Source: Marivirga harenae (GTDB taxonomy: Bacteria > Bacteroidota > Bacteroidia > Cytophagales > Cyclobacteriaceae). From it: a stretch of DNA of 64,000 bases. How positions within the stretch are numbered: position 1 is the first letter of the stretch; the number at the start of each line of letters is the position of its first letter. The notes beneath the pieces are model-generated. The model was not told the origin of the DNA, ran no database searches, and saw only the letters and a list, made by a program, of their open reading frames with translations. Location: positions 517,501 through 581,500 of the forward strand of contig NZ_CP130565.1 in NCBI RefSeq assembly GCF_030534335.1, given 5' to 3'. The translations under genes were made by a program, and so were the position numbers. This document shows positions 10,777 to 47,718 of this stretch, piece after piece.

Positions 10777-10790
10777 TTTTTTAAATTTTG

Positions 10791-10822
10791 AGATTATAGA
10801 ATCTAGAACATAGAGTCTAGAC
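10791..10822. repeat. Left inverted short-repeat array flanking four-helix-bundle gene
   Basis: TCTAGA-rich stretch. The reverse complement of 10791-10815 matches 11189-11213 at 21 of 25 bases, counted by hand, so the two flank the four-helix-bundle gene as imperfect inverted repeats. The array begins 14 bases upstream of the thiolase ATG and contains the stop codon (TAG, 10817-10819) of the four-helix-bundle gene. Confidence 0.7.
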
Positions 10823-11176
10823 TTCTGCATTCGTTTTCTTTATAAAAGAGTTAAGCATTTTTTGAATTTCATCTAATGCGTTCTTAACCGCATCAAAATC
10901 ACTTTCTGACACAAAATTCAGTTCTTTACTTAACAGCAATTGAGTTTCTAACTCAAAACTAGAACCAATAGATATTCTTAAGAACCTAGAAAAATCTTTG
11001 CTTGAATCTCTAGAAGAGCCTTCTGCAATATTAGATGGGATTGAAACAGCACACCTTCTAATTTGAGATATCAATCCAAATCTTTCCTCGCTAGGAAAAG
11101 TACTTGTGACTTGATATATCAATAGAGATAACTCCATTGATTTCTCCCAAACTTTAAGTTTCTTATAATTGTGCAT
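10817..11176 (-). CDS. Four-helix-bundle protein (23S rRNA intervening-sequence protein family)
   Basis: A 119-residue all-helical protein of the S23 / 23S-rRNA-IVP family (PF05635-like). Hallmarks are YKKLKVWEKSMELSLLIY at the N-terminus, FGLISQIRRCAVSIPSNIAEG in the middle and FLRISIGSSFELETQLLL. The family fold is a small up-down helical bundle, known also from rRNA intervening sequences and as an Avd-like accessory protein of diversity-generating retroelements; the role of stand-alone copies is unknown. It lies inside the beta-oxidation operon, in the same orientation, and is bracketed by inverted TCTAGA-rich arrays, which suggests it was inserted as a unit. No catalytic residues are apparent. 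Confidence 0.9.
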   Translation of the reverse strand: MHNYKKLKVWEKSMELSLLIYQVTSTFPSEERFGLISQIRRCAVSIPSNIAEGSSRDSSKDFSRFLRISIGSSFELETQLLLSKELNFVSESDFDAVKNALDEIQKMLNSFIKKTNAEV

Positions 11177-11188
11177 TTTCGATCTTTA

Positions 11189-11221
11189 TTCTATGTTCTA
11201 GGTTCTAGGATCTAAAGTCTA
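11189..11221. repeat. Right inverted short-repeat array flanking four-helix-bundle gene
   Basis: Three imperfect TTCTAGG/TTCTAGA-like units in a row. This is the inverted partner of the array at 10791-10815 (21 of 25 bases identical). Its outer end runs into the stop codon (TAG, 11219-11221) of the upstream HAD/ECH gene, so spacer and repeat coincide. Confidence 0.7.
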
Positions 11222-13621
11222 GTTTCTAAGCGGTTTTCCTCCTTGCAATACGGCTTGAATTCTTTCCAGTGTTTTCTTTTCTCCTAACAGGGATAAGAAA
11301 GCTTCTCTTTCAAGATCCAATAAGTATTGCTCTGAAACTTCTTGAGGATACGATAAATCTCCGCCACACATTACGTACGCTAGTTTATCTGCTATCTTCT
11401 GATCGTGTTCTGAAATGTATCGCCCCATCTTCATACCGGACACCCCCGCTTTAAATAAAGCAATACCAGTTTTTCCTTGCACTTTTATATCAGTCCTTTG
11501 AACTGGCATGGTATATCCAGCATCTGCCAATCTTATAGCAGCAGCTTTAGCATCAGCGATCTGACGGCTCCTATTCATACTGATTCCATCAGAAGGACGT
11601 AGAATCCCCATATCTCTTGCTTCATGAGCCGAGGTGGCAACTTTAGCCATGGCTATATTCATATAAGCATTTTGCAAAGCGTTCAGCTCAACATCTCCGT
11701 CCTGATATCTATCAGCTACTCGTAGAGCATTTTCTTTGGTACCTCCACCACCTGGAATGACACCAACGCCTACTTCAACCAAACCGATATAAGTTTCAGC
11801 TGAAGCTTGAACGTGGTCAGCATGCATGGATAATTCACATCCTCCACCTAAAGCCATATTATGTGGTGCTACTACAACAGGTACTGCTGAGTATCTTGCT
11901 CGCATCATAGTTTGTTGGAACTGACGAATCATGAAATCTAACTCATCATAATCTTGTTCGATGGCATACATGAAGATCATTCCCAAATTGGCGCCCACAG
12001 AAAAGTTCGAACCCTCGTTAGAGATTACTACTCCACGATACTTCTCCTCTCCCATCGAAATAGCCTTATTGATGGCTTCTATCACACCGCCACCGAGGGA
12101 ATTTGATTTAGAACGGAATTCTACATTAATAATACCGTCACCCAAATCGATAATTCCCGCTTCTGCATTGCTCCATATTTCTTTACCACTCTCTTTCAAG
12201 TTTTCAAGAATAATGAATTCCTCAGTTCCCGGGATATTTACATATTTCTTACTATCAAGATCATAGTATTGCTTTTGACCTGCTTCAACTTTATAGAAAG
12301 AATCTGCGCCAGAATCGAGCATATCATAAACCCATTGGTTTGGCTTATAACCTGCTTCTTCCATTTTCTCCACAGTCTTTTTAACACCTAGAGTATCCCA
12401 AGTCTCAAATGGTCCAATTTCCCAACCAAAGCCAGTGCAAACTGCTTGGTCAATTCTATATAATTCATCAGAAATCTCGGGAATTCTATTAGATGCATAT
12501 TTGAATAAACCATAGAAGGAATCTCTGTAGAATTCACCCGCTTTATCCTTACCTCCTAATAAAACAGGAAATCTCTCTTTTAGATTAGATATCTGCTTGG
12601 TGGACTCAAGGGTAGAGAATTTAGGCTTGCTCTTAGGCTTGTATTCCATTGACTCCAAATCCAAAGTAAGGATTTCAGTCTTTCCATCTTTTTTGGTCTT
12701 CTTATAAAAACCTTGCCCTGTTTTATCTCCTAACCATTTGTTGTCTTCTAACTTCCCGATTACATCCGGCAAATTGAAAGTTTCTCTAGCTTCATCATTT
12801 GGAAGATTTTCATATAAACCATTGGCTACTTTTATCAAGGTATCCAAACCAACTACATCAGAGGTTCTGAAAGTAGCAGATTTTGGTCGCCCAATAACAG
12901 GCCCTGTCAATTTATCAATCTCATCGATATTCATGCCTAATTTTTGCATGGACTCTACAACTTTCAAAATTGCATAGATACCTACTCTATTTGCGATAAA
13001 TGCAGGAGTATCTTTACATAAAACCGTTGTTTTGCCCAAATACAAATCTCCATAATGCATCAAGAAATCAGTAATCGCTTGATCCGTTTTTGGTGTAGGA
13101 ATGATTTCCAATAATTTTAAATAACGAGGCGGATTGAAGAAGTGTGTTCCAATAAAGTGCTTTTGGAAATCCTCACTTCTTTCTTCTAGCATCATATGAA
13201 TTGGAATACCTGAAGTGTTGGAGGATATAATAGTACCTTTAGTTCTGTGTTCTTCAACTTTTGAAAAAACTTTCTTTTTAATATCCAGTCGCTCCACAAC
13301 AGCTTCTAGCACCCAGTCACAATCTTTGATTTTGTGCATATCATCATCAAAATTTCCCAATGAAATTCTATTGGCAAAATCTTTATGATATAATGAAGCA
13401 GGCTTACCTTTCAAGGTAGATTCAAAAGCCTCATTCACGATACGATTGCGCACTTGCGGATCTTCCTTCGTCAGGCCCTTGTCTTTCTCGGCATCCGTAA
13501 GTTCAAAAGGCACGATATCAAGCAAGAGCACTTCCACACCAATATTGGCAAAGTGGCAGGCAATTCTTGATCCCATAATCCCCGAACCTAAAACGGCTAC
13601 TTTTTTAATGTTTCGTTTCAT
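11219..13621 (-). CDS. Bifunctional 3-hydroxyacyl-CoA dehydrogenase / enoyl-CoA hydratase
   Basis: An 800-residue fusion for the two middle steps of beta-oxidation. The NAD-binding 3HCDH domain comes first (GSGIMGS at residues 12-18, then SNTSGIPI and HFIGTHFFNPPRYLKLLEIIP), followed by the 3HCDH C-terminal domains (about 200-420). An enoyl-CoA hydratase/isomerase domain lies at about 490-690 (SNEGSNFSVGANLG and APHNMALGGGCELSMHADHV, forming the oxyanion hole). The order HAD-then-ECH is the reverse of E. coli FadB. It is the first enzyme gene after marR, and the following four-helix-bundle gene and thiolase are in the same orientation. Confidence 0.93.
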   Translation of the reverse strand: MKRNIKKVAVLGSGIMGSRIACHFANIGVEVLLLDIVPFELTDAEKDKGLTKEDPQVRNRIVNEAFESTLKGKPASLYHKDFANRISLGNFDDDMHKIKDCDWVLEAVVERLDIKKKVFSKVEEHRTKGTIISSNTSGIPIHMMLEERSEDFQKHFIGTHFFNPPRYLKLLEIIPTPKTDQAITDFLMHYGDLYLGKTTVLCKDTPAFIANRVGIYAILKVVESMQKLGMNIDEIDKLTGPVIGRPKSATFRTSDVVGLDTLIKVANGLYENLPNDEARETFNLPDVIGKLEDNKWLGDKTGQGFYKKTKKDGKTEILTLDLESMEYKPKSKPKFSTLESTKQISNLKERFPVLLGGKDKAGEFYRDSFYGLFKYASNRIPEISDELYRIDQAVCTGFGWEIGPFETWDTLGVKKTVEKMEEAGYKPNQWVYDMLDSGADSFYKVEAGQKQYYDLDSKKYVNIPGTEEFIILENLKESGKEIWSNAEAGIIDLGDGIINVEFRSKSNSLGGGVIEAINKAISMGEEKYRGVVISNEGSNFSVGANLGMIFMYAIEQDYDELDFMIRQFQQTMMRARYSAVPVVVAPHNMALGGGCELSMHADHVQASAETYIGLVEVGVGVIPGGGGTKENALRVADRYQDGDVELNALQNAYMNIAMAKVATSAHEARDMGILRPSDGISMNRSRQIADAKAAAIRLADAGYTMPVQRTDIKVQGKTGIALFKAGVSGMKMGRYISEHDQKIADKLAYVMCGGDLSYPQEVSEQYLLDLEREAFLSLLGEKKTLERIQAVLQGGKPLRN

Positions 13622-21624: not shown

Positions 21625-22932
21625 CTATTTTTTTCTAAAAACAAGCTTGATTGGCACCCCTTCAAAGTCAAAATTCTCCCTTAATCTGTTCTCAAGGTAC
21701 CTTTCGTAAGGTGGCTTTATGTATTGAGGAAGATTACAAAAGAATGCAAAAGTTGGTGTATATGTTGGTAACTGTGTTACGTATTTTATCTTAATATACT
21801 TCCCTTTAAGGGCAGGAGGCGGATATTTTTCAATCTCTTTTAGCATTACTTCATTCAAAGCTGAGGTACTCACCTTTTCAGTTCGACTGAAATAAATTTT
21901 TGTAGCCAGTTCAATAGCTTGAAATATTCGCTGCTTTTCAGTTACAGATGTGAAAATAATCGGAATATAATCTAATGGCCCTAATTTCTCCTGAATTTCT
22001 TTTTTGAATTTATCGTGAGTTTTTCCATCTTTCTCAATCAAATCCCACTTATTAACCATGATCATAATGCCCTTTTTGTTCTTATGGGCGAGACCAATAA
22101 TTTGCATGTCCTGGGATTCAAATCCACGTGTAGCATCAATCATGATAATACAAACGTCACTATCTTGCAGTGCTTGAATGGCCCGAATCGTTGAATAGAA
22201 CTCTATATCATCCTTTGTTTTAGTTTTTTTCCTCAAACCAGCCGTGTCCGTCAGGATAAAATCCTTTCCATACAGCTTATAATGAGTATTTATAGAATCA
22301 CGTGTAGTTCCTGCTATATCAGTTACAATAGTTCTTTCATCTCCTAGTAAAGCATTTAAAAATGAAGATTTACCTGCATTAGGGCGTCCCAAAATTGCTA
22401 ATCTGGGAATTCCTTCAAATGGATCTTTGTGGTCATCGTTAGGAAATAGTTCTACTACAGCATCTAGCACTTCTCCTGTCCCAGATCCGCTGGCAGAGGA
22501 CATGCTAAAAACTTCATCAAAACCTAAACCATAAAACTCTCCTGCCATGTAGCTTTTTTCTGTGCTGTCTGCTTTATTGGCAATTACGAACACGGGTTTA
22601 CCAACTTCTCTAACGATATTAGCAAAATCTTTATCCATATCGGTCAAGCCCGTATGGCAATCCACCATAAACAAAATCACAGTGGCTTCTTTCAGCGCTT
22701 CTTTTACTTGTTTTCGAATTTCTTTTTCGAAGATATCACTAGAACCTGTAACGTAACCACCGGTATCAATGACGGTGAACTTTTTACCTGTCCATTGCGC
22801 TTCACCGTATTGTCGATCTCGCGTAACGCCCGATTCGTTATCCATAATCGCTTGCTTTCGCTCTACTAAACGATTAAAAAAAGTGGATTTTCCGACATTC
22901 GGTCTTCCTACTATTGCTACTATGTTTGACAT
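21625..22932 (-). CDS. der: Ribosome-biogenesis GTPase Der (EngA)
   Basis: A 435-residue GTPase with two tandem G domains, unique to Der. P-loops are GRPNVGKST (residues 9-17) and GRPNAGKSS (about 180). Other G motifs include DTGG, DTAGLRKK, NKAD and NKWD. A C-terminal KH-like domain ends in FEGVPIKLVFRKK. Der acts in late 50S subunit assembly. The ATG is three bases from an inverted repeat that bounds the four-helix-bundle pseudogene separating der from era. Confidence 0.97.
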   Translation of the reverse strand: MSNIVAIVGRPNVGKSTFFNRLVERKQAIMDNESGVTRDRQYGEAQWTGKKFTVIDTGGYVTGSSDIFEKEIRKQVKEALKEATVILFMVDCHTGLTDMDKDFANIVREVGKPVFVIANKADSTEKSYMAGEFYGLGFDEVFSMSSASGSGTGEVLDAVVELFPNDDHKDPFEGIPRLAILGRPNAGKSSFLNALLGDERTIVTDIAGTTRDSINTHYKLYGKDFILTDTAGLRKKTKTKDDIEFYSTIRAIQALQDSDVCIIMIDATRGFESQDMQIIGLAHKNKKGIMIMVNKWDLIEKDGKTHDKFKKEIQEKLGPLDYIPIIFTSVTEKQRIFQAIELATKIYFSRTEKVSTSALNEVMLKEIEKYPPPALKGKYIKIKYVTQLPTYTPTFAFFCNLPQYIKPPYERYLENRLRENFDFEGVPIKLVFRKK

Positions 22933-22935
22933 TTT

Positions 22936-22976
22936 TAATTACGAATTAATAATTTTTTAATTACGAACTGGAAATG
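22936..22976. repeat. Left inverted repeat array of four-helix-bundle element 2
   Basis: Contains TAATTACGAATTA (22936-22948) and a second TTAATTACGAA unit (22957-22967). The first unit is the exact reverse complement of 23433-23445, giving 13-bp perfect inverted termini. The outer end is three bases from the der start codon. Confidence 0.7.
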
Positions 22977-22987
22977 AGCACTGAACT

Positions 22988-23344
22988 TTATTCCATCTTC
23001 GCTTTTGTAGTTTTTTGTATTGAACCAATGATTTTCAATATTTCTTCACACATCTCAATCATAATTGATGCAGTATTAGGTTCTAATAATCAAGAATCTT
23101 TTATTAGCCTTAACCAATAATGTGTTTCTCTTGCCTCTTTGTATGAAATTGAAAGTTTAGCTAAAAAGTCCTTTCTTGATTGAGCGCCAATCGCTTCCTC
23201 GACATTTGCCCCGATAGAAGTACCTGATCTTAATACTTGGGAGGATATCTCAAAATGAGTTCCCCTTTTTAATAATTGAGCAATTCTAATAACCTCTAGA
23301 GCAAATTGATAACTTTTTAATTGAATTACATTTTGCGATTTCAT
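22988..23344 (-). pseudogene. Four-helix-bundle (23S rRNA IVP family) gene with in-frame TGA
   Basis: The open part (23090-23344) encodes 84 residues with family features SSQVLRSGTSIGANVEEAIG, SRKDFLAKLSISYKEARE and HYWLRLIKDS, then stops at TGA (23090-23092). Reading on in the same frame gives 33 more codons (LLEPNTASIMIEMCEEILK onward) to TAA at 22988-22990. The restored 118-residue product has normal family length, and its last helix (EMCEEILKIIGSI) fits the family C-terminus. The simplest view is one GGA-to-TGA change at the usual Lys-Asp-Ser-Gly position. It lies between era and der, in the same orientation, inside inverted TTCGTAATT arrays. Confidence 0.85.
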
Positions 23345-23425
23345 TTTTGGGGATGTTTAGTTGAAAATTTTTCATGAGATGAAGTTAATAAAAACTATCA
23401 ATGTCATCTCAAATTTCCCAATTGA

Positions 23426-23445
23426 TAATTCGTAATTCGTAATTA
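23426..23445. repeat. Right inverted repeat array of four-helix-bundle element 2
   Basis: TAATTCGTAATTCGTAATTA: two overlapping copies of TAATTCGTAATT. The outer 13 bases are the perfect inverted partner of 22936-22948. One base separates it from the era stop codon (23447-23449), so the element fills the whole era-der spacer. Confidence 0.7.
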
Positions 23446-23446
23446 T

Positions 23447-24331
23447 CTAATAACCAAATCTCTTCAACTTCAAATCCTTTTTCCGCCAGTCTTGCTCTAC
23501 TTTTACGAAGGTTTCCAGGTGGATTTGCTTATTGAAGAATGTTTCTAGATCCTTGCGAGATTCAATTCCTACCTTCTTAATCGCTTCTCCTGCCTTTCCT
23601 ATAATAATCCCCTTTTGAGATTTTCTTTCTACATATATTTCTGCTCTTATTCGTATGATCTTCTCATCCTCTTTAAATTCAGTCACTACAACCTCACAGC
23701 TGTAGGGAACCTCCTTTTTATAATTTTGAAATATTTTTTCCCTAATGATCTCCTCCACAAAAAACTTCTCCGGCTTATCTGTCATTTCCTCTTTTGGGAA
23801 ATAGGCCGGATGTACTGGCAATAGATCAATCAACTTCCCGAAAAGCTCTTCTATATTGACCTTCTCTAGAGCCGAAATCATAATTTGGTGATCGGGCTCA
23901 ATAATTTCTGCCCAATACTTCATTTTGTCTTCCGCTTGAGAACCTTTTGATTGATCAATTTTATTCATAACCAAAATTATAGGTACTCCGCTTTTCTTGA
24001 TTCTATCAATCAAATCATCATCTTCCTCGTATTTTTCGTATAAATCCGTCACAAAAAGCAAAATATCTGCATCCTCTAGTGCTGATTTCACGAATCGCAT
24101 CATAGAATTATGCAGTTCATATTGCGGACTTAGAATACCAGGTGTATCAGAATAAACCACCTGAAAATCCTTCCCGCTCAAAATCCCCATAATTCTATGA
24201 CGAGTTGTTTGGGCTTTGGAAGTAATAATAGAAAGACGCTCTCCTACTAAAGCGTTCATTAATGTAGACTTTCCTACATTTGGCTTCCCCACTATACTTA
24301 CAAATCCGGCTTTATGCTGATTTTCTGACAT
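23447..24331 (-). CDS. era: GTPase Era
   Basis: A 294-residue GTPase for 16S rRNA maturation and 30S assembly. G1 is GKPNVGKST (residues 15-23), G2/G3 are TTRHR and YSDTPG, and G4 is NKID. The C-terminal KH domain has IGKAGEAIKKVGIESRKDLE. A -7-like TACCTTTG (24350-24357, minus strand) lies just upstream, facing the tRNA promoter. era is first in an era - 4HB pseudogene - der unit. Confidence 0.96.
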   Translation of the reverse strand: MSENQHKAGFVSIVGKPNVGKSTLMNALVGERLSIITSKAQTTRHRIMGILSGKDFQVVYSDTPGILSPQYELHNSMMRFVKSALEDADILLFVTDLYEKYEEDDDLIDRIKKSGVPIILVMNKIDQSKGSQAEDKMKYWAEIIEPDHQIMISALEKVNIEELFGKLIDLLPVHPAYFPKEEMTDKPEKFFVEEIIREKIFQNYKKEVPYSCEVVVTEFKEDEKIIRIRAEIYVERKSQKGIIIGKAGEAIKKVGIESRKDLETFFNKQIHLETFVKVEQDWRKKDLKLKRFGY

Positions 24332-40392: not shown

Positions 40393-43300
40393 ATGAAACA
40401 ATTTCCTACTATTTGCTGCTTCTTAGTGATCTTTGTTTTATTATCAATGGGTGCAGCATTTGCTCAAGCGCCCACAATCACAAGTCTTTCTCCATCATCA
40501 GGACCACTCGGAACAAGCATTACTATTGCTGGTAACAACTTTAATCCCTCTGGACCAAATGATGTATTTTTTGGATCTATAAAAGTAACTGCAAACGCAA
40601 ATGCGGCAGGTACACAAATCATAGTGAATGTACCAGCCGGTGCTTCGTCAATAACACCCATAATTATCAGAAATAATGTTTCAGGATTGCAGGCAAGTTC
40701 CTTACAATCAACTACTCCTTTTTTTAGTCTAACTCATTCCCCAACGATTCCTATAACAACCTCAAGTTACAATGAAACTAGATACAATACCTTCGTCTCT
40801 TTTCCTGCCTTAAGTAGCGGAGACTTTGATAATGATGGTTATGCTGATATTGTTACTGGTGGAGGACAAACAGCAATAAGACTGTACAGAAATAATAGAT
40901 TAGGTGGCTTTTCATTCAGCTCAACTTTACCATTGACTGGTACAAGTGGTGCTTCTACTATCGTTACTGCTGACATCAATGCTGATGGTAATTTGGATAT
41001 TGCTGTAGGAAAAACTGGTATAGGTGAGTTGGACATTTTTTTAGGAAATGGAGATGGATCTTTTGTGGTAGGTACCAGCATCGCATTTGTATCGGGTGGC
41101 AGTGCAGGTTTAGCTCTAGAAGATATTAACAACGATGGCCATCTTGATTTAATAAGCAATTATTTCAATGAACTTCACATCCAGATAGGAAATGGTACGG
41201 GAAATTTTACTCCAGCATCAGGTTCCCCGAAAAATCTTTCCCCCTTTTTTAACCCTGGGGAATTAGCTATTGCAGATTTCAACGAAGACGGCTTTATTGA
41301 TATCGTCACCATGGGTGGAAGCCCAGGATCGGTGCTTGTATTACTCAATAACCAGGATAACACTTTCGCTGACCCATTGCTTTACCCCGCTGGCGAGAAT
41401 GGGTTTGAAATCGTTGTAGGAGACTATAATGCAGATGAAAATATTGATATTGCGGTCTTAAGTTTTGATAGTCAAAATATCACCACATTAAGTGGCGATG
41501 GACTAGGCGGATTTACAGCTTTTCCAGCAAGTCCTATCGATATGCCGGGTATTAATCTAGGCTTATCGCAAGGAGATTTTGATGGAGATGGTATAATTGA
41601 TCTGGTTGTAGGAGGGAATACAACAAATCTAGTACCCCTATTGCGGGGCGATGGTTCTGGTGACTTTAATTCATTTCCGACTTTTCCCCTGAATGTTAGT
41701 CCCGCTCAGCCTTACGGGATACTTTCTGATGATTTCAATAATGATGGCGTGGCTGATATTGCGTTTGCCGGAAATAGCGCATTTCATATCTTACTTTCAC
41801 CGTCCAGCTTTAGGACTACGTGGGTCACTACAGACGGAGAGATCAACATTCCTACGACTGGGGCAGGATATAACTACGATGTGATTTGGAGTAATCTTAC
41901 CAACCTAGGAGTCGGAAATGGAGCTGCTTCAAACCTTACGGGTGATTACACTATAACAGGTCTAAGCAATGGAGATACTTATCAGTTACTAATTAAAGGT
42001 GACTTCCCTAGGATCAATTTTAATAATGGAGGGGATAAAGATAAAATATTTACAATAGAGGAATGGGGGGATAATCAATGGTCGACTATGCAGACGGCAT
42101 TTTATGGTTGTACAAACCTAACTGTGCCTGCAGTTGATGCGCCTAATTTATCAAGCACTTTGTCACTAAATCAAATGTTTCGTGGCGCTAGCAGTTTTAA
42201 TGAATCCATTGACCACTGGGACGTAAGTAACATCATTTTGTTTTTCGGGATGTTCCAGGACGCAACATCTTTCAACCAACCCCTAAACAGTTGGGATATT
42301 TCCAGTGCCACAAGTATCTCTAATATGTTTCAAGGTGCAACAAGTTTCAATCAACCATTAAGCAATTGGGTCACAACGGGTTTGACTGATATAAAAGTAA
42401 TGTTTAAAGACGCTACAAGTTTTAATCAATCCGTCAACAATTTTGACGTAAGTCTTGTGACAGATTTTGCTGGTACTTTCGAAGGAGCAACTTCTTTTGA
42501 TCAACCCTTGAATAATTGGGATGTTAGTTCTGCCAATAGCTTAGCTCTAATGTTCTATAGAGCAAGTGCTTTCAACCAAGATCTAAGCTCTTGGGATGTA
42601 AGTAATGCCACTAGCATGGCCTACATGTTCGGCTTCGCTAGCAGTTTTGATCAGGATCTAGGCGGATGGGATATAGGACAAGTCACAAGCATGATCGATA
42701 TGCTCTGGCTGTCAAATTTATCAATTAGTAATTATGACAATGCATTGATCGGTTGGTCCACTATCAGCGGTAGTGAAACTCAAATTCCTAGTGGGATAAC
42801 ATCCTTCAGATCTAATGGACTTTCTTATTGCAATGGTGAAGCTGCAAGACAGTTTTTGATTGACAATCAGGGCTGGGCGATTACGCTCGATTCCAAAAGT
42901 GTAAGCTGTCCGCCAAACATTATATCATTTACACCAACAAGTGCAGCTAGCGGAGCTACAGTCACTATTACTGGAACAAGCTTTACTGGAACTACGGCTG
43001 TTAGTTTTGGAGGAACAGCGGCTGCTTCTTTTTCTGTCAATTCTGACACTGAAATCACGGCTGTGGTAGCCAATGGAACTTCTGGTAGCATAGAAGTTAC
43101 CACTTCAGAAGGTACAAGCACATTAGCAGGATTCACTTTTATACCACCTCCTACTATCACCTCTTTTGCCCCTACATTTGGAAATGAAGGAGAAACTATC
43201 ACCATTACAGGAGTAGATTTTACGGGAGCAACTGCAGTTAGTTTTGGGGGCATTGCTGCAACTTCTTATACTGTTATTTCTGACACTGAAATATCTGCAG

Positions 43301-46300
43301 TAATTGCAGCAAGCTCATCATCCGGAAATATTGAGGTCACCACAGCAAATGGTACTGCTCTTTTGAACGGCTTTATGTTTAATCCATTCATTACCACTTG
43401 GGTTACCGATAACAGCAGCATTATCATACCTACAACGGGAGGTGGATATAATTATGATGTCAGTTGGACCAATCTTACAACTGCTGGGGTAGGTGACGGA
43501 ACTCTGACCGGTCGAACCGGAAATACTTCTATATTTGGATTAACCACTGGGGACGTCTATCAAGTTCGAATCACAGGAGTATTTCCCAGAATTTACTTCG
43601 AGGGAAGCACTTTTCAAAACCAACAGAAAATAAGGAGTATTGAACAATGGAGTAATAATAATTGGACAAGCATGGAAGGGGCTTTTTCCAGTTGTCGTAA
43701 TATGGTTATTAACGCAAACGATTCCCCCGACCTTTCAAACGTCACTAGTTTGAGCAGCATGTTTGTTGGAGTATTAGAAACTAATGCATTTACCAATACT
43801 GACCTAACGTCCTGGGATGTGAGCAACATAACAGACATGAGTTATCTCTTCAACTTTGCATGGTATTTTAATCAGGATATAAGCAGCTGGGACGTGAGTC
43901 AAGTGACTAATATGGCATATATGTTCGGTGGAGCATATTATTTTAATCAACCGCTAAATTCTTGGGATGTCAGCAATGTTATAAATATGGAACTCATGTT
44001 TTTTGAACTATTAGAGTTTAATCAACCGCTAGATCAATGGGATGTGAGCAATGTACAGTTTATGAACGGAATGTTTTCTTATACAGAAGCATTTAATCAG
44101 CCTTTAGACAATTGGGATGTGAGCAATGTTACCAATATGCAAGAAATGTTTGCAGGCTCGCTTGTTTTTAACCAGCCGTTAAACTTATGGAATGTAAGCT
44201 CAGTAACGGATATGAGTTTAATGTTTCAGAGTGCAGAGGCCTTTGATCAGCCCTTGGATAATTGGAATGTGAGCAACGTAACTGAAATGTGGGCAATGTT
44301 CCAATTTAATGATATTTTCAATCAAAATATCAGCAATTGGAATGTAAGCAACGTGACAGATATGTGGCGAATGTTTCAAGAGGCTTCAGTTTTCGATCAA
44401 GACCTCGGTGTATGGGACGTGAGCAATGTATTTGATATGGACAATATGCTAAGTAATTCCGGCTTGTCAATCGCAAATTACGATGCCACCCTAATAGGTT
44501 GGTCAAGTTTATCCTCTTTACAACCTAGCATCAGCTTTGGTGCACTATCTTTAAACTACTGCGAAGGAGAAACTGCTAGAAATTCAATTATTGGCACTTT
44601 CGGCTGGACTTTCAATGATGCTGGCAAAAACTGCATACCAAGCATTGCTTCTTTTACTCCTACTTTAGGCGGAACTGGAGCAACAGTGACGATTACTGGA
44701 AATAATCTTATTAGCGCTACCAATGTCAGTTTTGGCGGGACAGCTGCTAGTTCCTTCACAGTTGTTAATAATACGACCATCAATGCAGTATTAGGTTCTG
44801 GTTCGAGCGGAGATCTTGAAGTTATTACTCCTGATGGAACAGCCACGCTCTCAGGATTTGTGTATATTCCTGCGCCAAATATAACCTCATTTACTCCTAC
44901 GAGTGCTGCCAGCGCAGGCACTGTTACCATTGCTGGAAGTAATCTTAATGGCGCTACATCAGTAACTTTCGGAGGTACAAATGCTACAACTTTTACTGTT
45001 GTTTCAGCGACTGAAATTACCGCAGTCGTTGCATCTGGAACTTCTGGTAGTATCGAAATCACTACTCCAGGAGGAACTGCCTCCATCAGCAACTTTACCT
45101 TTATCGCTGCTCCAACAATATCTTCTTTTTCTCCTCTAACCGCTGCTCAAGGTGAAACTGTAACCATCTCTGGGACCAATTTAACTGGGGCAACTGCTGT
45201 AACCTTTGGAGGAACTGCTGCTGCTTCTTTCTCTGTAAATTCTGATACTGAAATTAGTGCTGTCGTAGCTAATGGAACTTCTGGAAATATCGAGATCACT
45301 ACACCAGGAGGAACTGCTTCCATTATAAACTTTATCTTCATCGCTGCTCCTACAATATCTTCTTTTTCTCCTCTGACTGCTGCACAAGGTGAAACTATCT
45401 CTATCACAGGAACCAATTTCACAGGAACTACGGAAGTTAAATTCGGTGGAACACCGACCAGTTCTTTTTCGGTGGTCTCAGCTACTGAAATCACTGCTGT
45501 TGTTGGAAATGGAAGCTCAGGTAATATTGAAGTAACTACTGCAGGAGGAACATTTTCAGTTCCAAACTTTATCTTCATTCCTGCACCAGGCATAGATTCT
45601 TTTTCTCCAGGTTCAGCGGGACAAGGTGAAACTGTTACTATCACAGGAACCAATTTCACAGGAACTACGGAAGTTAATTTCGGTGGAACACCGGCCACTT
45701 CTTTTTCGGTGGTCTCTGCTACTGAAATAACAGCTGTTGTAGCGAATGGAAGCTCAGGTAATATTGAAGTAACTACTGCAGGAGGAACATTTTCAGTTCC
45801 AAACTTTATCTTCATTCCTGCTCCAGGCATAGATTCTTTTTCTCCCAGTTCAGCAGGACAAGGTGAAACTGTTACTATCACAGGAACCAATTTCACAGGA
45901 ACTACGGAAGTTAATTTCGGTGGAACACCGGCCACTTCTTTTTCGGTGGTCTCAGCTACTGAAATCACCGCTGTTGTAGCGAATGGAAGCTCAGGTAATA
46001 TTGAAGTAACTAATGTAGGAGGAACATTTTCAGTTCCAAACTTTATCTTCATTCCTGCTCCAGGCATAGATTCTTTTTCTCCATTAACCGCTGCTCAAGG
46101 TGAAACTGTAACCATCTCTGGGGCCAATTTAACTGGGGCAACTGCTGTAACCTTTGGAGGAACTGCTGCTGCTTCTTTCTCTGTAAATTCTGATACTGAA
46201 ATCAGTGCTGTCGTAGCTAATGGAACTTCTGGAAATATCGAAATCACTACACCAGGAGGAACTGCTTCCATTATAAACTTTATCTTCATCGCTGCTCCTA

Positions 46301-47718
46301 CAATATCTTCTTTTTCTCCTCTGACTGCTGCACAAGGTGAAACTGTTACTATCACAGGAAACAATTTCACAGGAACTACGGAAGTTAATTTCGGTGGAAC
46401 ACCTGCCACTTCTTTTTCGGTGGTCTCAGCTACTGAAATAACAGCTGTTGTAGCGAATGGAAGCTCAGGTAATATTGAAGTAACTACTGCAGGAGGAACT
46501 ACTTCTATTCCAAATTTTTTATTTATCTCTAACCCTACAATAGATTCTTTTTCTCCCCTTTCGGCTGCTGAAGGAGAAAATGTGACAATAACCGGTACTA
46601 ATTTTACTGGCACTAGTGCAGTTAGTTTTGGTGGGACAGCAGCTACCTCATTTACTGTAATTGCTGATAATATGATTAATGCCGTGGTAGGTGAAGGGTC
46701 CTCAGGGGCTGTAATGGTCACTACACCAGCTGGCACCGCCTCTCTGGAAGGATTTACCTTAATCTTTTCACAAATAGGCGTAATCTGGAATGATAACGTT
46801 GAAATCGAAAATAATCAATCTGAAGCTATCAACTTTGGAGCAGTGTCAGTTGGTGGTGAAATCGAAAAACAAATTGTAATATTAAATACTGGCAATAAAA
46901 ATCTTGAGATTTCTAACATAAGTTCTTCCGCAGAGGCATTTACAGTTCAATCGACACTAGGTGTTGTAGAATCTGGTTTCCAAGCATCTATCACAATACT
47001 ATTTAGTGCAGCTAATGTAGGAGTTTATGAAAGTGAAATAAGAATAAATAATAATAGTCGAAACAGTCCAGAGTTTATTTTTACTATCTCAGCAGAACTA
47101 ACTGGCCTCAATATCATTGATGGGGAAACGGATTCTCTGGTGATCTCAAATCAAGATATTAACTTAGGTTCTACAGTGATCAATGTGAATGTCGATAAGA
47201 ATTTTAATATTGAAAATTTAAGTTCAACTTCCATAATTGAAATATTGAGCATAGATGTAGACAACCCTGTTTTTCGTATTATTAATGCACCTGCCTCCAT
47301 CGCCCCCGCCTCATCTGAAGTATTTACCGTGAGATTAACTGCTAATTCACTAGGAGAATATAGCGGCCTTGTGACAGTCAAAACCAACTTGAACGATTTT
47401 ACTTTTAGAGTCACTGGGACAGTAATTGAGGAATTATCAACTGACATTAAAGTGTATAATGTTGTCACCCCCAATGGTGATGGCAGGCATGATTTTCTTC
47501 TGATCGATAATATAACAGAATACCAAAATAATAATGTTAGTATTTTCAACCGATTGGGTAACAGAGTCTTTGAAATTGACAATTACGATAATTCATCTCG
47601 CATTTTTGAAGGCAATTCGAACAGTGGTGAACAACTACTTACTGGAAATTATTATTATGTGATTGACAAAGGCAATGGTGAAAAAAGAATTAGTGGCTTT
47701 TTAATTATAAAAAGATGA
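40393..47718 (+). CDS. Giant type IX-secreted adhesin: TIG, FG-GAP, DUF285, TIG array, sorting domain
   Basis: A 2441-residue surface protein. Signal peptide (1-24, ending AFAQ); one TIG domain (25-115); about seven FG-GAP/VCBS repeats (136-472) with calcium-type DxDxDG loops (DFDNDGYADIVTGG, DINADGNLDIAVGK, DFDGDGIIDLVVGG); DUF285 block 1 (475-837); two TIG domains (840-995); DUF285 block 2 (998-1412) with very regular FNQPLDNWDVSNVTNMQEMF units; nine TIG domains (1416-2122); choice-of-anchor-D domains (2126-2345); and the type-B sorting domain (2350-2441), identical to that of the first adhesin. The FG-GAP part is absent from the first adhesin, so the two differ in surface binding. Stop overlaps the second SprF-like gene (ATGA). 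Confidence 0.93.
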   Translation: MKQFPTICCFLVIFVLLSMGAAFAQAPTITSLSPSSGPLGTSITIAGNNFNPSGPNDVFFGSIKVTANANAAGTQIIVNVPAGASSITPIIIRNNVSGLQASSLQSTTPFFSLTHSPTIPITTSSYNETRYNTFVSFPALSSGDFDNDGYADIVTGGGQTAIRLYRNNRLGGFSFSSTLPLTGTSGASTIVTADINADGNLDIAVGKTGIGELDIFLGNGDGSFVVGTSIAFVSGGSAGLALEDINNDGHLDLISNYFNELHIQIGNGTGNFTPASGSPKNLSPFFNPGELAIADFNEDGFIDIVTMGGSPGSVLVLLNNQDNTFADPLLYPAGENGFEIVVGDYNADENIDIAVLSFDSQNITTLSGDGLGGFTAFPASPIDMPGINLGLSQGDFDGDGIIDLVVGGNTTNLVPLLRGDGSGDFNSFPTFPLNVSPAQPYGILSDDFNNDGVADIAFAGNSAFHILLSPSSFRTTWVTTDGEINIPTTGAGYNYDVIWSNLTNLGVGNGAASNLTGDYTITGLSNGDTYQLLIKGDFPRINFNNGGDKDKIFTIEEWGDNQWSTMQTAFYGCTNLTVPAVDAPNLSSTLSLNQMFRGASSFNESIDHWDVSNIILFFGMFQDATSFNQPLNSWDISSATSISNMFQGATSFNQPLSNWVTTGLTDIKVMFKDATSFNQSVNNFDVSLVTDFAGTFEGATSFDQPLNNWDVSSANSLALMFYRASAFNQDLSSWDVSNATSMAYMFGFASSFDQDLGGWDIGQVTSMIDMLWLSNLSISNYDNALIGWSTISGSETQIPSGITSFRSNGLSYCNGEAARQFLIDNQGWAITLDSKSVSCPPNIISFTPTSAASGATVTITGTSFTGTTAVSFGGTAAASFSVNSDTEITAVVANGTSGSIEVTTSEGTSTLAGFTFIPPPTITSFAPTFGNEGETITITGVDFTGATAVSFGGIAATSYTVISDTEISAVIAASSSSGNIEVTTANGTALLNGFMFNPFITTWVTDNSSIIIPTTGGGYNYDVSWTNLTTAGVGDGTLTGRTGNTSIFGLTTGDVYQVRITGVFPRIYFEGSTFQNQQKIRSIEQWSNNNWTSMEGAFSSCRNMVINANDSPDLSNVTSLSSMFVGVLETNAFTNTDLTSWDVSNITDMSYLFNFAWYFNQDISSWDVSQVTNMAYMFGGAYYFNQPLNSWDVSNVINMELMFFELLEFNQPLDQWDVSNVQFMNGMFSYTEAFNQPLDNWDVSNVTNMQEMFAGSLVFNQPLNLWNVSSVTDMSLMFQSAEAFDQPLDNWNVSNVTEMWAMFQFNDIFNQNISNWNVSNVTDMWRMFQEASVFDQDLGVWDVSNVFDMDNMLSNSGLSIANYDATLIGWSSLSSLQPSISFGALSLNYCEGETARNSIIGTFGWTFNDAGKNCIPSIASFTPTLGGTGATVTITGNNLISATNVSFGGTAASSFTVVNNTTINAVLGSGSSGDLEVITPDGTATLSGFVYIPAPNITSFTPTSAASAGTVTIAGSNLNGATSVTFGGTNATTFTVVSATEITAVVASGTSGSIEITTPGGTASISNFTFIAAPTISSFSPLTAAQGETVTISGTNLTGATAVTFGGTAAASFSVNSDTEISAVVANGTSGNIEITTPGGTASIINFIFIAAPTISSFSPLTAAQGETISITGTNFTGTTEVKFGGTPTSSFSVVSATEITAVVGNGSSGNIEVTTAGGTFSVPNFIFIPAPGIDSFSPGSAGQGETVTITGTNFTGTTEVNFGGTPATSFSVVSATEITAVVANGSSGNIEVTTAGGTFSVPNFIFIPAPGIDSFSPSSAGQGETVTITGTNFTGTTEVNFGGTPATSFSVVSATEITAVVANGSSGNIEVTNVGGTFSVPNFIFIPAPGIDSFSPLTAAQGETVTISGANLTGATAVTFGGTAAASFSVNSDTEISAVVANGTSGNIEITTPGGTASIINFIFIAAPTISSFSPLTAAQGETVTITGNNFTGTTEVNFGGTPATSFSVVSATEITAVVANGSSGNIEVTTAGGTTSIPNFLFISNPTIDSFSPLSAAEGENVTITGTNFTGTSAVSFGGTAATSFTVIADNMINAVVGEGSSGAVMVTTPAGTASLEGFTLIFSQIGVIWNDNVEIENNQSEAINFGAVSVGGEIEKQIVILNTGNKNLEISNISSSAEAFTVQSTLGVVESGFQASITILFSAANVGVYESEIRINNNSRNSPEFIFTISAELTGLNIIDGETDSLVISNQDINLGSTVINVNVDKNFNIENLSSTSIIEILSIDVDNPVFRIINAPASIAPASSEVFTVRLTANSLGEYSGLVTVKTNLNDFTFRVTGTVIEELSTDIKVYNVVTPNGDGRHDFLLIDNITEYQNNNVSIFNRLGNRVFEIDNYDNSSRIFEGNSNSGEQLLTGNYYYVIDKGNGEKRISGFLIIKR
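45150..46560 (+). repeat. Nearly identical 237-bp tandem repeats encoding TIG domains
   Basis: Within the second adhesin gene, about six consecutive TIG-coding units repeat at 237-bp steps (79 codons). The string AGGAACTACGGAAGTTAATTT recurs near 45659, 45896 and 46373. A second-order repeat is also visible: the unit starting near 45150 (GGTGAAACTGTAACCATCTC) recurs near 46098, 948 bases (four units) later. The pattern implies recent expansion by unequal recombination. Confidence 0.85.

Follow-up and report, generated by a model that had tools for sequence, protein, structure and literature searches.

A unit with a single gene fills the spacer between two genes of Marivirga harenae that we take to be era and der (names taken from an initial annotation of this DNA). 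It lies in a stretch of 64,000 nt (contig NZ_CP130565.1, positions 517,501–581,500; hereafter the window, whose own numbering is used throughout), and its gene belongs to the four-helix-bundle (S23/IVP) family, PF05635/TIGR02436. The closest described system is the intervening sequence (IVS) of 23S rRNA, an insertion into a transcribed place in which an S23/IVP open reading frame (ORF) sits in the loop of terminal inverted repeats; some 23S IVS have no S23 ORF. Intergenic tandem heptamers near start and stop codons make up the short tandemly repeated repetitive (STRR) sequences of cyanobacteria, on which papers reportedly appeared in 1990, and heptamers are also said to occur in tRNA-Leu introns. 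Repetitive extragenic palindromic (REP) hairpins and their REP-associated tyrosine transposases (RAYTs) combine a small gene with short palindromic repeats, many of them solo, and the RAYTs recognise a conserved sequence. IVP units share with this system the one small gene, the short palindromic repeats and the many solo repeats, but each IVP unit has its own word and none has a known transposase.

In Coxiella the 23S IVS is reported to form a 28-bp stem, to be cleaved by RNase III and to carry tandem GACAGAT heptamers in its 5' arm, in a copy number that varies between strains (PMC4990558). Intergenic tandem heptamers near start or stop codons are also described in Beggiatoaceae (TAACTGA; PMC4679880) and in Xanthomonas and Nostoc (GGGAATC-type; PMC4692102), where the excerpts considered mention no linked IVP gene, whereas the arrays of IVP units are paired and inverted and flank an IVP gene. 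IVP genes have been reported in cas loci as well (PMC3936711). The 23S IVS, the heptamer repeats and the IVP genes of cas loci are each already known separately; in the open-access literature, with subscription papers and bioRxiv outside the scope, no paper was found to connect operon-borne IVP genes with heptamer arms.

Set beside these systems, the era–der unit has terminal inverted repeats able to pair, an S23 ORF in the loop between them (with its frame broken in this copy) and, in the manner of STRR-type sequences, tandem 7-nt units in intergenic DNA. Unlike a 23S IVS it stands between protein genes, behind a stop codon and not inside a 23S rRNA helix, and its removal by RNase III is something that we infer. 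The initial annotation knew no described mechanism for such elements; the design itself has a precedent in the 23S IVS with an S23 ORF. We consider it fairly probable that the unit is one example of a widespread kind of insertion, in which inverted arrays of a 7-nt word enclose a single S23/IVP gene, and that it is the operon counterpart of the 23S IVS.

The era–der unit and its class

The unit (22933–23446, minus strand) takes up the entire 514 bp from the stop codon of era (23447–24331, minus strand; stop codon at 23449–23447) to the start codon of der (21625–22932, minus strand; start at 22932). The initial annotation had read the whole spacer as one unit, and a single unit between inverted word arrays is what is found, with the length corrected from 510 bp. 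Its outer 13-bp perfect inverted repeats are present at exactly the positions claimed, TAATTACGAATTA at 22936–22948 on the der side and the reverse complement at 23433–23445 on the era side; longer arms of 18 nt are 89% complementary. The 5' arm (23420–23446, minus strand) is a heptamer array of AATTACG words on the coding strand which abuts the era stop codon and in which TAATTCG is repeated 2.7 times with period 7 (23426–23444). The 3' arm (22933–22967, minus strand) is made of inverted words (TTCGTAATT), ends at the der start codon and shows two 14-nt copies, at 22932–22945 and 22954–22967. Between the 5' arm and the IVP gene lies a leader hairpin with 16-nt arms that are 81% complementary (23375–23411, minus strand). 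When the RNA of the whole spacer is folded, the outermost helix consists of exactly the 13 bp of the perfect repeats, in the minimum-energy and centroid structures, and this closing helix spans from 1 nt past the era stop codon to 3 nt short of the der ATG. Of 2000 dinucleotide shuffles, 5 reached the inverted score of the arms, and the arms' score of 29 in the survey described below is above the 95th percentile of mismatched pairs (24) and below the 99th (31).

The IVP gene is the sole recognised gene in the unit, in which translation and profile matching revealed no known transposase. It matches PF05635 at 88.3 bits (cut-off 33.8) and runs in sense with the operon, as the initial annotation had it; what that annotation overlooked is an in-frame TGA at 23090–23092, which ends the protein after 84 codons in this genome (23090–23344, minus strand, by profile match and translation). 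The remaining 33 codons and stop of the frame (22988–23089, minus strand) are uninterrupted in 7 of 9 congeners, and the intact ortholog of one of them, G006, scores 109.4 bits (cut-off 24). Across nine diverse IVP copies Q, R, S, N and E residues are invariant, and dN/dS values of 0.02–0.37 where defined (saturated pairs were left undefined) indicate that the gene is under purifying selection in relatives. IVP matches the solved structures 2gsc (XCC0516) and 2rld, and the paper on the XCC0516 structure is said, by its title, to describe five four-helix bundles. Judged by profile scores the protein is also a distant relative of Avd, the protein of diversity-generating retroelements to which it is reported to be homologous in structure (PMC10053308): three of four IVP proteins match the Avd model weakly, at 28.8, 21.3 and 19.1 bits, with none listed for the fourth, against an equivalog cut-off of 80.

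The same anatomy recurs around other IVP genes. Two sets of loci were surveyed, with one locus common to both (L169 = L018). The first comprised 74 genes from 60 genomes (our own and 59 relatives, 49 with a match) and seven era–der orthologs, 81 elements in all, which amount to about a third of 228 matches and are mostly the best-scoring genes and genus members, with some near-copies in sister species. The second held the best 80 of at least 573 confirmed loci from a scan of the genomes of 84,980 species. Inverted word arrays flank the family in both: own flanks of the 74 genes score on average 30.6 as inverted repeats, where 2173 mismatched pairs average 18.0 and 435 stretches taken from other parts of these loci 17.2, and own arms in the second set average 30.8 versus 18.1 for 6320 mismatched pairs. 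Singly, 29 of the 74 genes exceed the 99th percentile of mismatched pairs, as do 16 of the 80 in the second set, where 39 exceed the 95th; L081, for example, has an own inverted score of 31. Clear arms are thus not a feature of every member. By record title the second set is mostly Bacteroidota, and clear arms are also seen there in records from Omnitrophica, Betaproteobacteria, Chlorobiota and Clostridia. Weight is placed on these alignment scores rather than on duplex energies or whole-unit folding, which lend modest support.

The arms are built on a period of seven. In the 81 elements the match rate at lag 7 is 0.366 on the left and 0.369 on the right, versus 0.259 in controls, and in the 80 named loci it is 0.365 and 0.355 versus 0.259, with echoes at 14, 21 and 28 in both sets; the IVP genes themselves have no lag-7 peak (first set). 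The word varies from element to element but fits a loose grammar, YNAGWWN, read from the outer end inwards and derived from the 101 left and 100 right arms that passed a period filter, of 161 elements per side. At one position of the arm heptamers G makes up 83–91%, C is rare, and the heptamers carry 3.24 and 3.41 bits of information versus 2.4–2.6 for letter-shuffled words. The complement of the Beggiatoaceae word TAACTGA fits this grammar too. Found in 81 and 80 loci and on plasmids (see below), such period-7 inverted arms bear out the earlier suggestion of a class of single-gene elements that exploit operon spacers. Neither of the two results that the initial annotation had named as refutations turned up: arrays do flank further members of the family, and sites compared between congeners differ by gain or loss of the unit.

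Like the era–der unit, which follows its upstream stop codon immediately and in sense, most units lie close behind a stop codon and point the same way as their operon. When both neighbours lie within 500 bp (142 units), 132 are between two same-direction genes and in sense, and 4 are antisense between two such genes. Left arrays begin no more than 10 nt from the upstream sense stop in 86 of 101 cases and touch or overlap it in 58, in a search that began 12 nt before the stop, with short gaps, and hence favoured small distances. The host stop triplet recurs at +7, +14, +21 and +28 in 16, 19, 13 and 13 of 112 cases, and at other offsets from 3 to 29 in at most 5 of 112. Either the array is seeded from the target stop codon or an incoming array brings the stop with it.

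In the own genome (4.37 Mb, one contig) there are five PF05635 genes, all flanked by inverted short words and each with its own, and the conservation of terminal repeats between copies that characterises insertion sequences is not found: five copies have five words. The four units other than that of era–der exceed the 99th percentile of mismatched arm pairs. One of them, at 10791–11221 of the window, had been described as having the same architecture with a different repeat word, and this proved right: the design is that of the era–der unit, the word is TTCTAGG, and the inverted score was reached by 1 of 2000 dinucleotide shuffles. This sister unit occupies a spacer whose neighbours presumably encode a thiolase and HADH, to judge by their sequence. 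It has an intact IVP gene of 119 aa (10820–11176, minus strand; PF05635 142.4 bits), a 5' arm of CTAGAAC words (11178–11222, minus strand) and a 3' arm of 34 nt (10788–10821, minus strand) that is 79% complementary to 11183–11216. At another place in the genome (L146:6725–7535), in an operon that by eye is ilv-like, there are three word arrays which are possible arms-only remains, and no IVP remnant was seen near the two of them that were tested. Apart from these units, the window holds a 237-bp repeat in seven tandem copies (44990–46638) inside a 2441-aa ORF (40393–47718).

Sites in congeners, plasmids and 23S rRNA

Among congeners the unit comes, goes and is exchanged as a unit: the comparison of sites, proposed earlier as a check for gain or loss, revealed sites that are filled, sites that are empty, sites with arms alone and sites with a swapped unit. 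In the era–der spacer 8 of 10 genus genomes carry the ORF, broken in our own (G000) and uninterrupted in the seven others; G007 has no IVP ORF there, and its left and right arms are of different word types, while G008 has a short word residue. In another genus (L046) era and der nearly adjoin. The spacer upstream of the thiolase gene holds an IVP gene in 7 of 10 genomes (the open frame of G002 is unchecked), in three divergent lineages and with words CTAGA, TTAGATG or TTGACA; G006 and G007 have arms only and G008 has no ORF. The IVP gene of G008 (L077) lies 3' of the thiolase gene, and so outside this lineage count, although the tree label for the site includes it; the tree is built on few columns. 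Five of 10 genomes have a filled E2/DLDH spacer; it is short and empty in G001, G003, G004 and G006, and likewise without an ORF in G007. Behind AsnRS the G004 site is empty; a fifth site is filled in only G000 and G003 of the 10 genomes, with both copies broken; and one more spacer contains an IVP unit in G009 and, in G005, words of a different type without an ORF. With regard to target-site duplications, the empty congener spacers are too diverged to be aligned base by base with filled ones.

Several further features were seen in such spacers. Between its mismatched arms the era–der spacer of G007 (L040) has GGAGGGAGGAAAGTTTAGCGGGCC... in place of the IVP ORF, and in G040, of another family, the same spacer (L049) is filled by more than 10 tandem copies of the 8-nt word AATTACAG, and no IVP ORF was seen in the spacer sequence displayed. 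A palindromic repeat of another kind, GGTCAGACGGTAGTCAGACCGG with its complement, occurs in the downstream spacer of L140 and L141, with variants in L126, L129 and L135; found in several spacers of the genus, it looks REP-like or like a miniature inverted-repeat transposable element (MITE).

The era–der unit of G000 is 97.8% identical to that of G004 over 506 aligned nt, versus 85.0% and 81.8% over the neighbouring 500 and 800 nt. The increase in identity sets in where era ends and has faded within some 100 nt of der; the arms differ by a single indel, one 7-bp heptamer, an extra copy in our own 5' arm. With exchange flagged where the unit exceeded each flank by more than 3 points and more than 300 nt were aligned, 2 of 36 era–der pairs stood out (nine genomes, G008 omitted), namely G000/G004 and, to a mild degree, G000/G006. 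At three other sites, where 8, 7 and 5 genomes were compared, none of 28, 21 and 10 pairs did so. At the thiolase spacer the flanks of G005 and G009 are 99.8% and 99.4% identical, and the left arm and first nine gene bases are shared, but the remaining gene and the right arm come from different IVP lineages, which makes the G005 unit chimeric, its two arms not matching each other. Elsewhere the two arms differ jointly from one lineage to the next. This is clear at the AsnRS site, where across species arms match with scores of 25–49 within a word class versus 17–22 between classes, and less clear at era–der (26–47 versus 20–40), where the contrast is weakened because a long array in G006 fits both classes.

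Units of this design are not confined to chromosomal operons. A search with one IVP protein matched 38 plasmid records, many of them cyanobacterial, and of 12 that were analysed 7 have both arms strongly of period 7 (at least 18 of 24) and one more has period 8 in both arms; inverted scores are 46 or more in 7 of the 12. Of the IVP genes on cyanobacterial plasmids, two have cas6 and cas4 as neighbours and a third is flanked by cas10 and a cmr3-type gene; these loci (L346, L351, L355) have arrays of 7 or 8 nt. The units between cas genes may explain the IVP genes reported in cas loci. Carriage by phages found no support, as one IVP protein gave no match when searched against 50,697 phage records.

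In the Azospirillum lipoferum 4B plasmid AZO_p2 (L357, 13498–15633) an IVP ORF lies inside a 23S rRNA gene, between inverted heptamers AGGACGG and ATGACAG; the gene table, which omits RNA genes, has nothing annotated at that location. Together with the GACAGAT heptamers of Coxiella this suggests that the operon units and these 23S IVS have a single anatomy and differ in setting, on the basis of one case of period-7 arms from sequence and one from a paper.

Counter-evidence and rival explanations

Several observations weigh against the reading of the units as one kind of insertion with paired heptamer arms. The fold energy of the whole era–der spacer has a z of −1.9, with 4 of 100 shuffles folding equally well, and RNA duplex energies (120-nt flanks) part own from mismatched arms weakly, with 27 of 81 beyond the 5% point. 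Archaeal L202 and alphaproteobacterial L230 records have no arms, L349 and L356 have a single arm, those of L352 are weak, the arrays of L346 are direct instead of inverted, and those of L354 and L355 have period 8; on plasmids, where 10 units have annotated neighbours, 3 run antisense to the genes on either side. The mismatched arms of the G005 unit in the thiolase spacer and of G007 at era–der indicate that pairing is not strictly required. In IVP-bearing G006 and G009 period 7 is not in excess, other periods being equally or more numerous. Heptamer arrays also exist without IVP, since 12 of 12 sampled arrays have no IVP within 800 bp. For three of these 12 an inverted partner lies within 600 bp (P below 0.06), and for the other 9 there is none; with 9 partnerless and none of the 12 near an IVP remnant, it is not claimed that all solo arrays are relics.

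The rival that survives best is passive spread, in which units travel only by transformation and homologous recombination through conserved neighbours and IVP gives no mobility; we grant it a substantial minority chance, and ordinary recombination has to be taken seriously as a source of the observed exchanges. Sites are indeed reused, the ends of exchange tracts coincide with conserved flanks or lie close to them, and the own genome is without a PF00078 reverse transcriptase. The proteins of the AsnRS site form one clade (support 99/90), as do, weakly, those of era–der (80/24). Passive spread is harder to reconcile with the three divergent IVP lineages in the thiolase spacer and the three in the E2/DLDH spacer, from which new lineages seem to arrive, although the well-supported branches of the tree, taken alone, would be compatible with one origin per site. 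It also has to contend with the occurrence of this design across several phyla as well as on plasmids and within 23S rRNA, and with a G000/G004 tract that is little longer than the unit.

It might instead be supposed that the arms are slippage microsatellites, kept alike on the two sides by hairpin-templated correction, around an ordinary immobile host gene. Heptamer repeats are reported to be over-represented in bacteria, with slippage proposed as the cause (PMC4679880, PMC4692102), and the one-heptamer indel between G000 and G004 and the existence of arrays without IVP are in keeping with this; slippage probably explains changes in array length. In 464 kb of the own genome at a strict threshold, however, period 7 was the sole tandem class among periods of 4–12 nt, and one of its three arrays is an arm of the 10791 unit. 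At a looser threshold 400-kb samples yielded 5, 5, 1 and 1 arrays in IVP-bearing G000, G045, G006 and G009 versus 0 and 0 in two IVP-free genomes, a co-occurrence that is suggestive only, because both IVP-free genomes are richer in G+C and period 7 is unremarkable in G006 and G009. Slippage would leave unexplained why arrays flank both sides of one gene family, and presence, absence and cassette swaps of the unit among congeners speak against it. As slippage alone is insufficient where period 7 stands out near IVP genes on both sides and in inverted register, we hold this account of the whole unit to be improbable.

A host regulatory module, in which IVP binds the heptamer hairpins and tunes the operon, is in our estimate slightly more doubtful still. 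Purifying selection on the gene and the position between stop and start codons would suit such a role, and translational regulation has been suggested for the TAACTGA heptamers (PMC4679880). Yet any given operon has the unit in some congeners and lacks it in others, the operons do not look related, and the words differ from unit to unit. Least probable of the four is a retroelement whose folded transcript IVP would hand to a reverse transcriptase acting in trans, the copy entering behind stop codons: the strong sense bias of the units and the reported kinship of IVP and Avd fit it, but Avd scores are far under the equivalog cut-off and a profile search found no PF00078 reverse transcriptase in the own complete one-contig genome, and it is for this last reason kept as a minor rival only.

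A proposed course of events and its implications

If the units are insertions of the kind proposed, their position and shape would go some way to explain how they are borne. An insertion behind the stop codon of a gene in a transcribed operon would harm the protein of neither neighbour, and the unit would be read with the operon, presumably lacking a promoter of its own. In the mRNA the arms would pair, enclosing the insert in one hairpin, and RNase III may then cut the insert out of the message, by analogy with 23S rRNA. We propose that the host tolerates the unit because the arms enclose it in a hairpin, and that its removal would leave both host cistrons usable. IVP, kin to Avd and to a family with a solved five-fold structure, may act on the arm hairpins and so aid the persistence or spread of the unit; the window copy, having lost its reading frame, would rely on other copies or be decaying. 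How the units move is likewise something that we infer, and IVP could be either the mover or a mere passenger.

The insertion reading links three observations that had stood apart, namely the IVS of 23S rRNA, the S23/IVP genes scattered among operons and cas loci, and the heptamer repeats found between genes. The function of the IVS protein also becomes testable, because the units provide matched arms, each with its own word, and the congeners provide empty, filled and swapped sites. A bolder proposal, which we put forward tentatively and think a little less likely than passive spread and much less so than the plain insertion reading, is that IVP units form a distinct class of mobile DNA whose ends are known by a 7-nt period and hairpin shape and whose sole mobility factor is the five-fold four-helix-bundle protein. 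Were this so, 23S IVS, the IVP genes of cas loci and many of the heptamer repeats of cyanobacteria and Bacteroidota would be the insertions, arms or relics of the class, and the recognition of ends by period and hairpin instead of sequence would be a new rule for mobile DNA.

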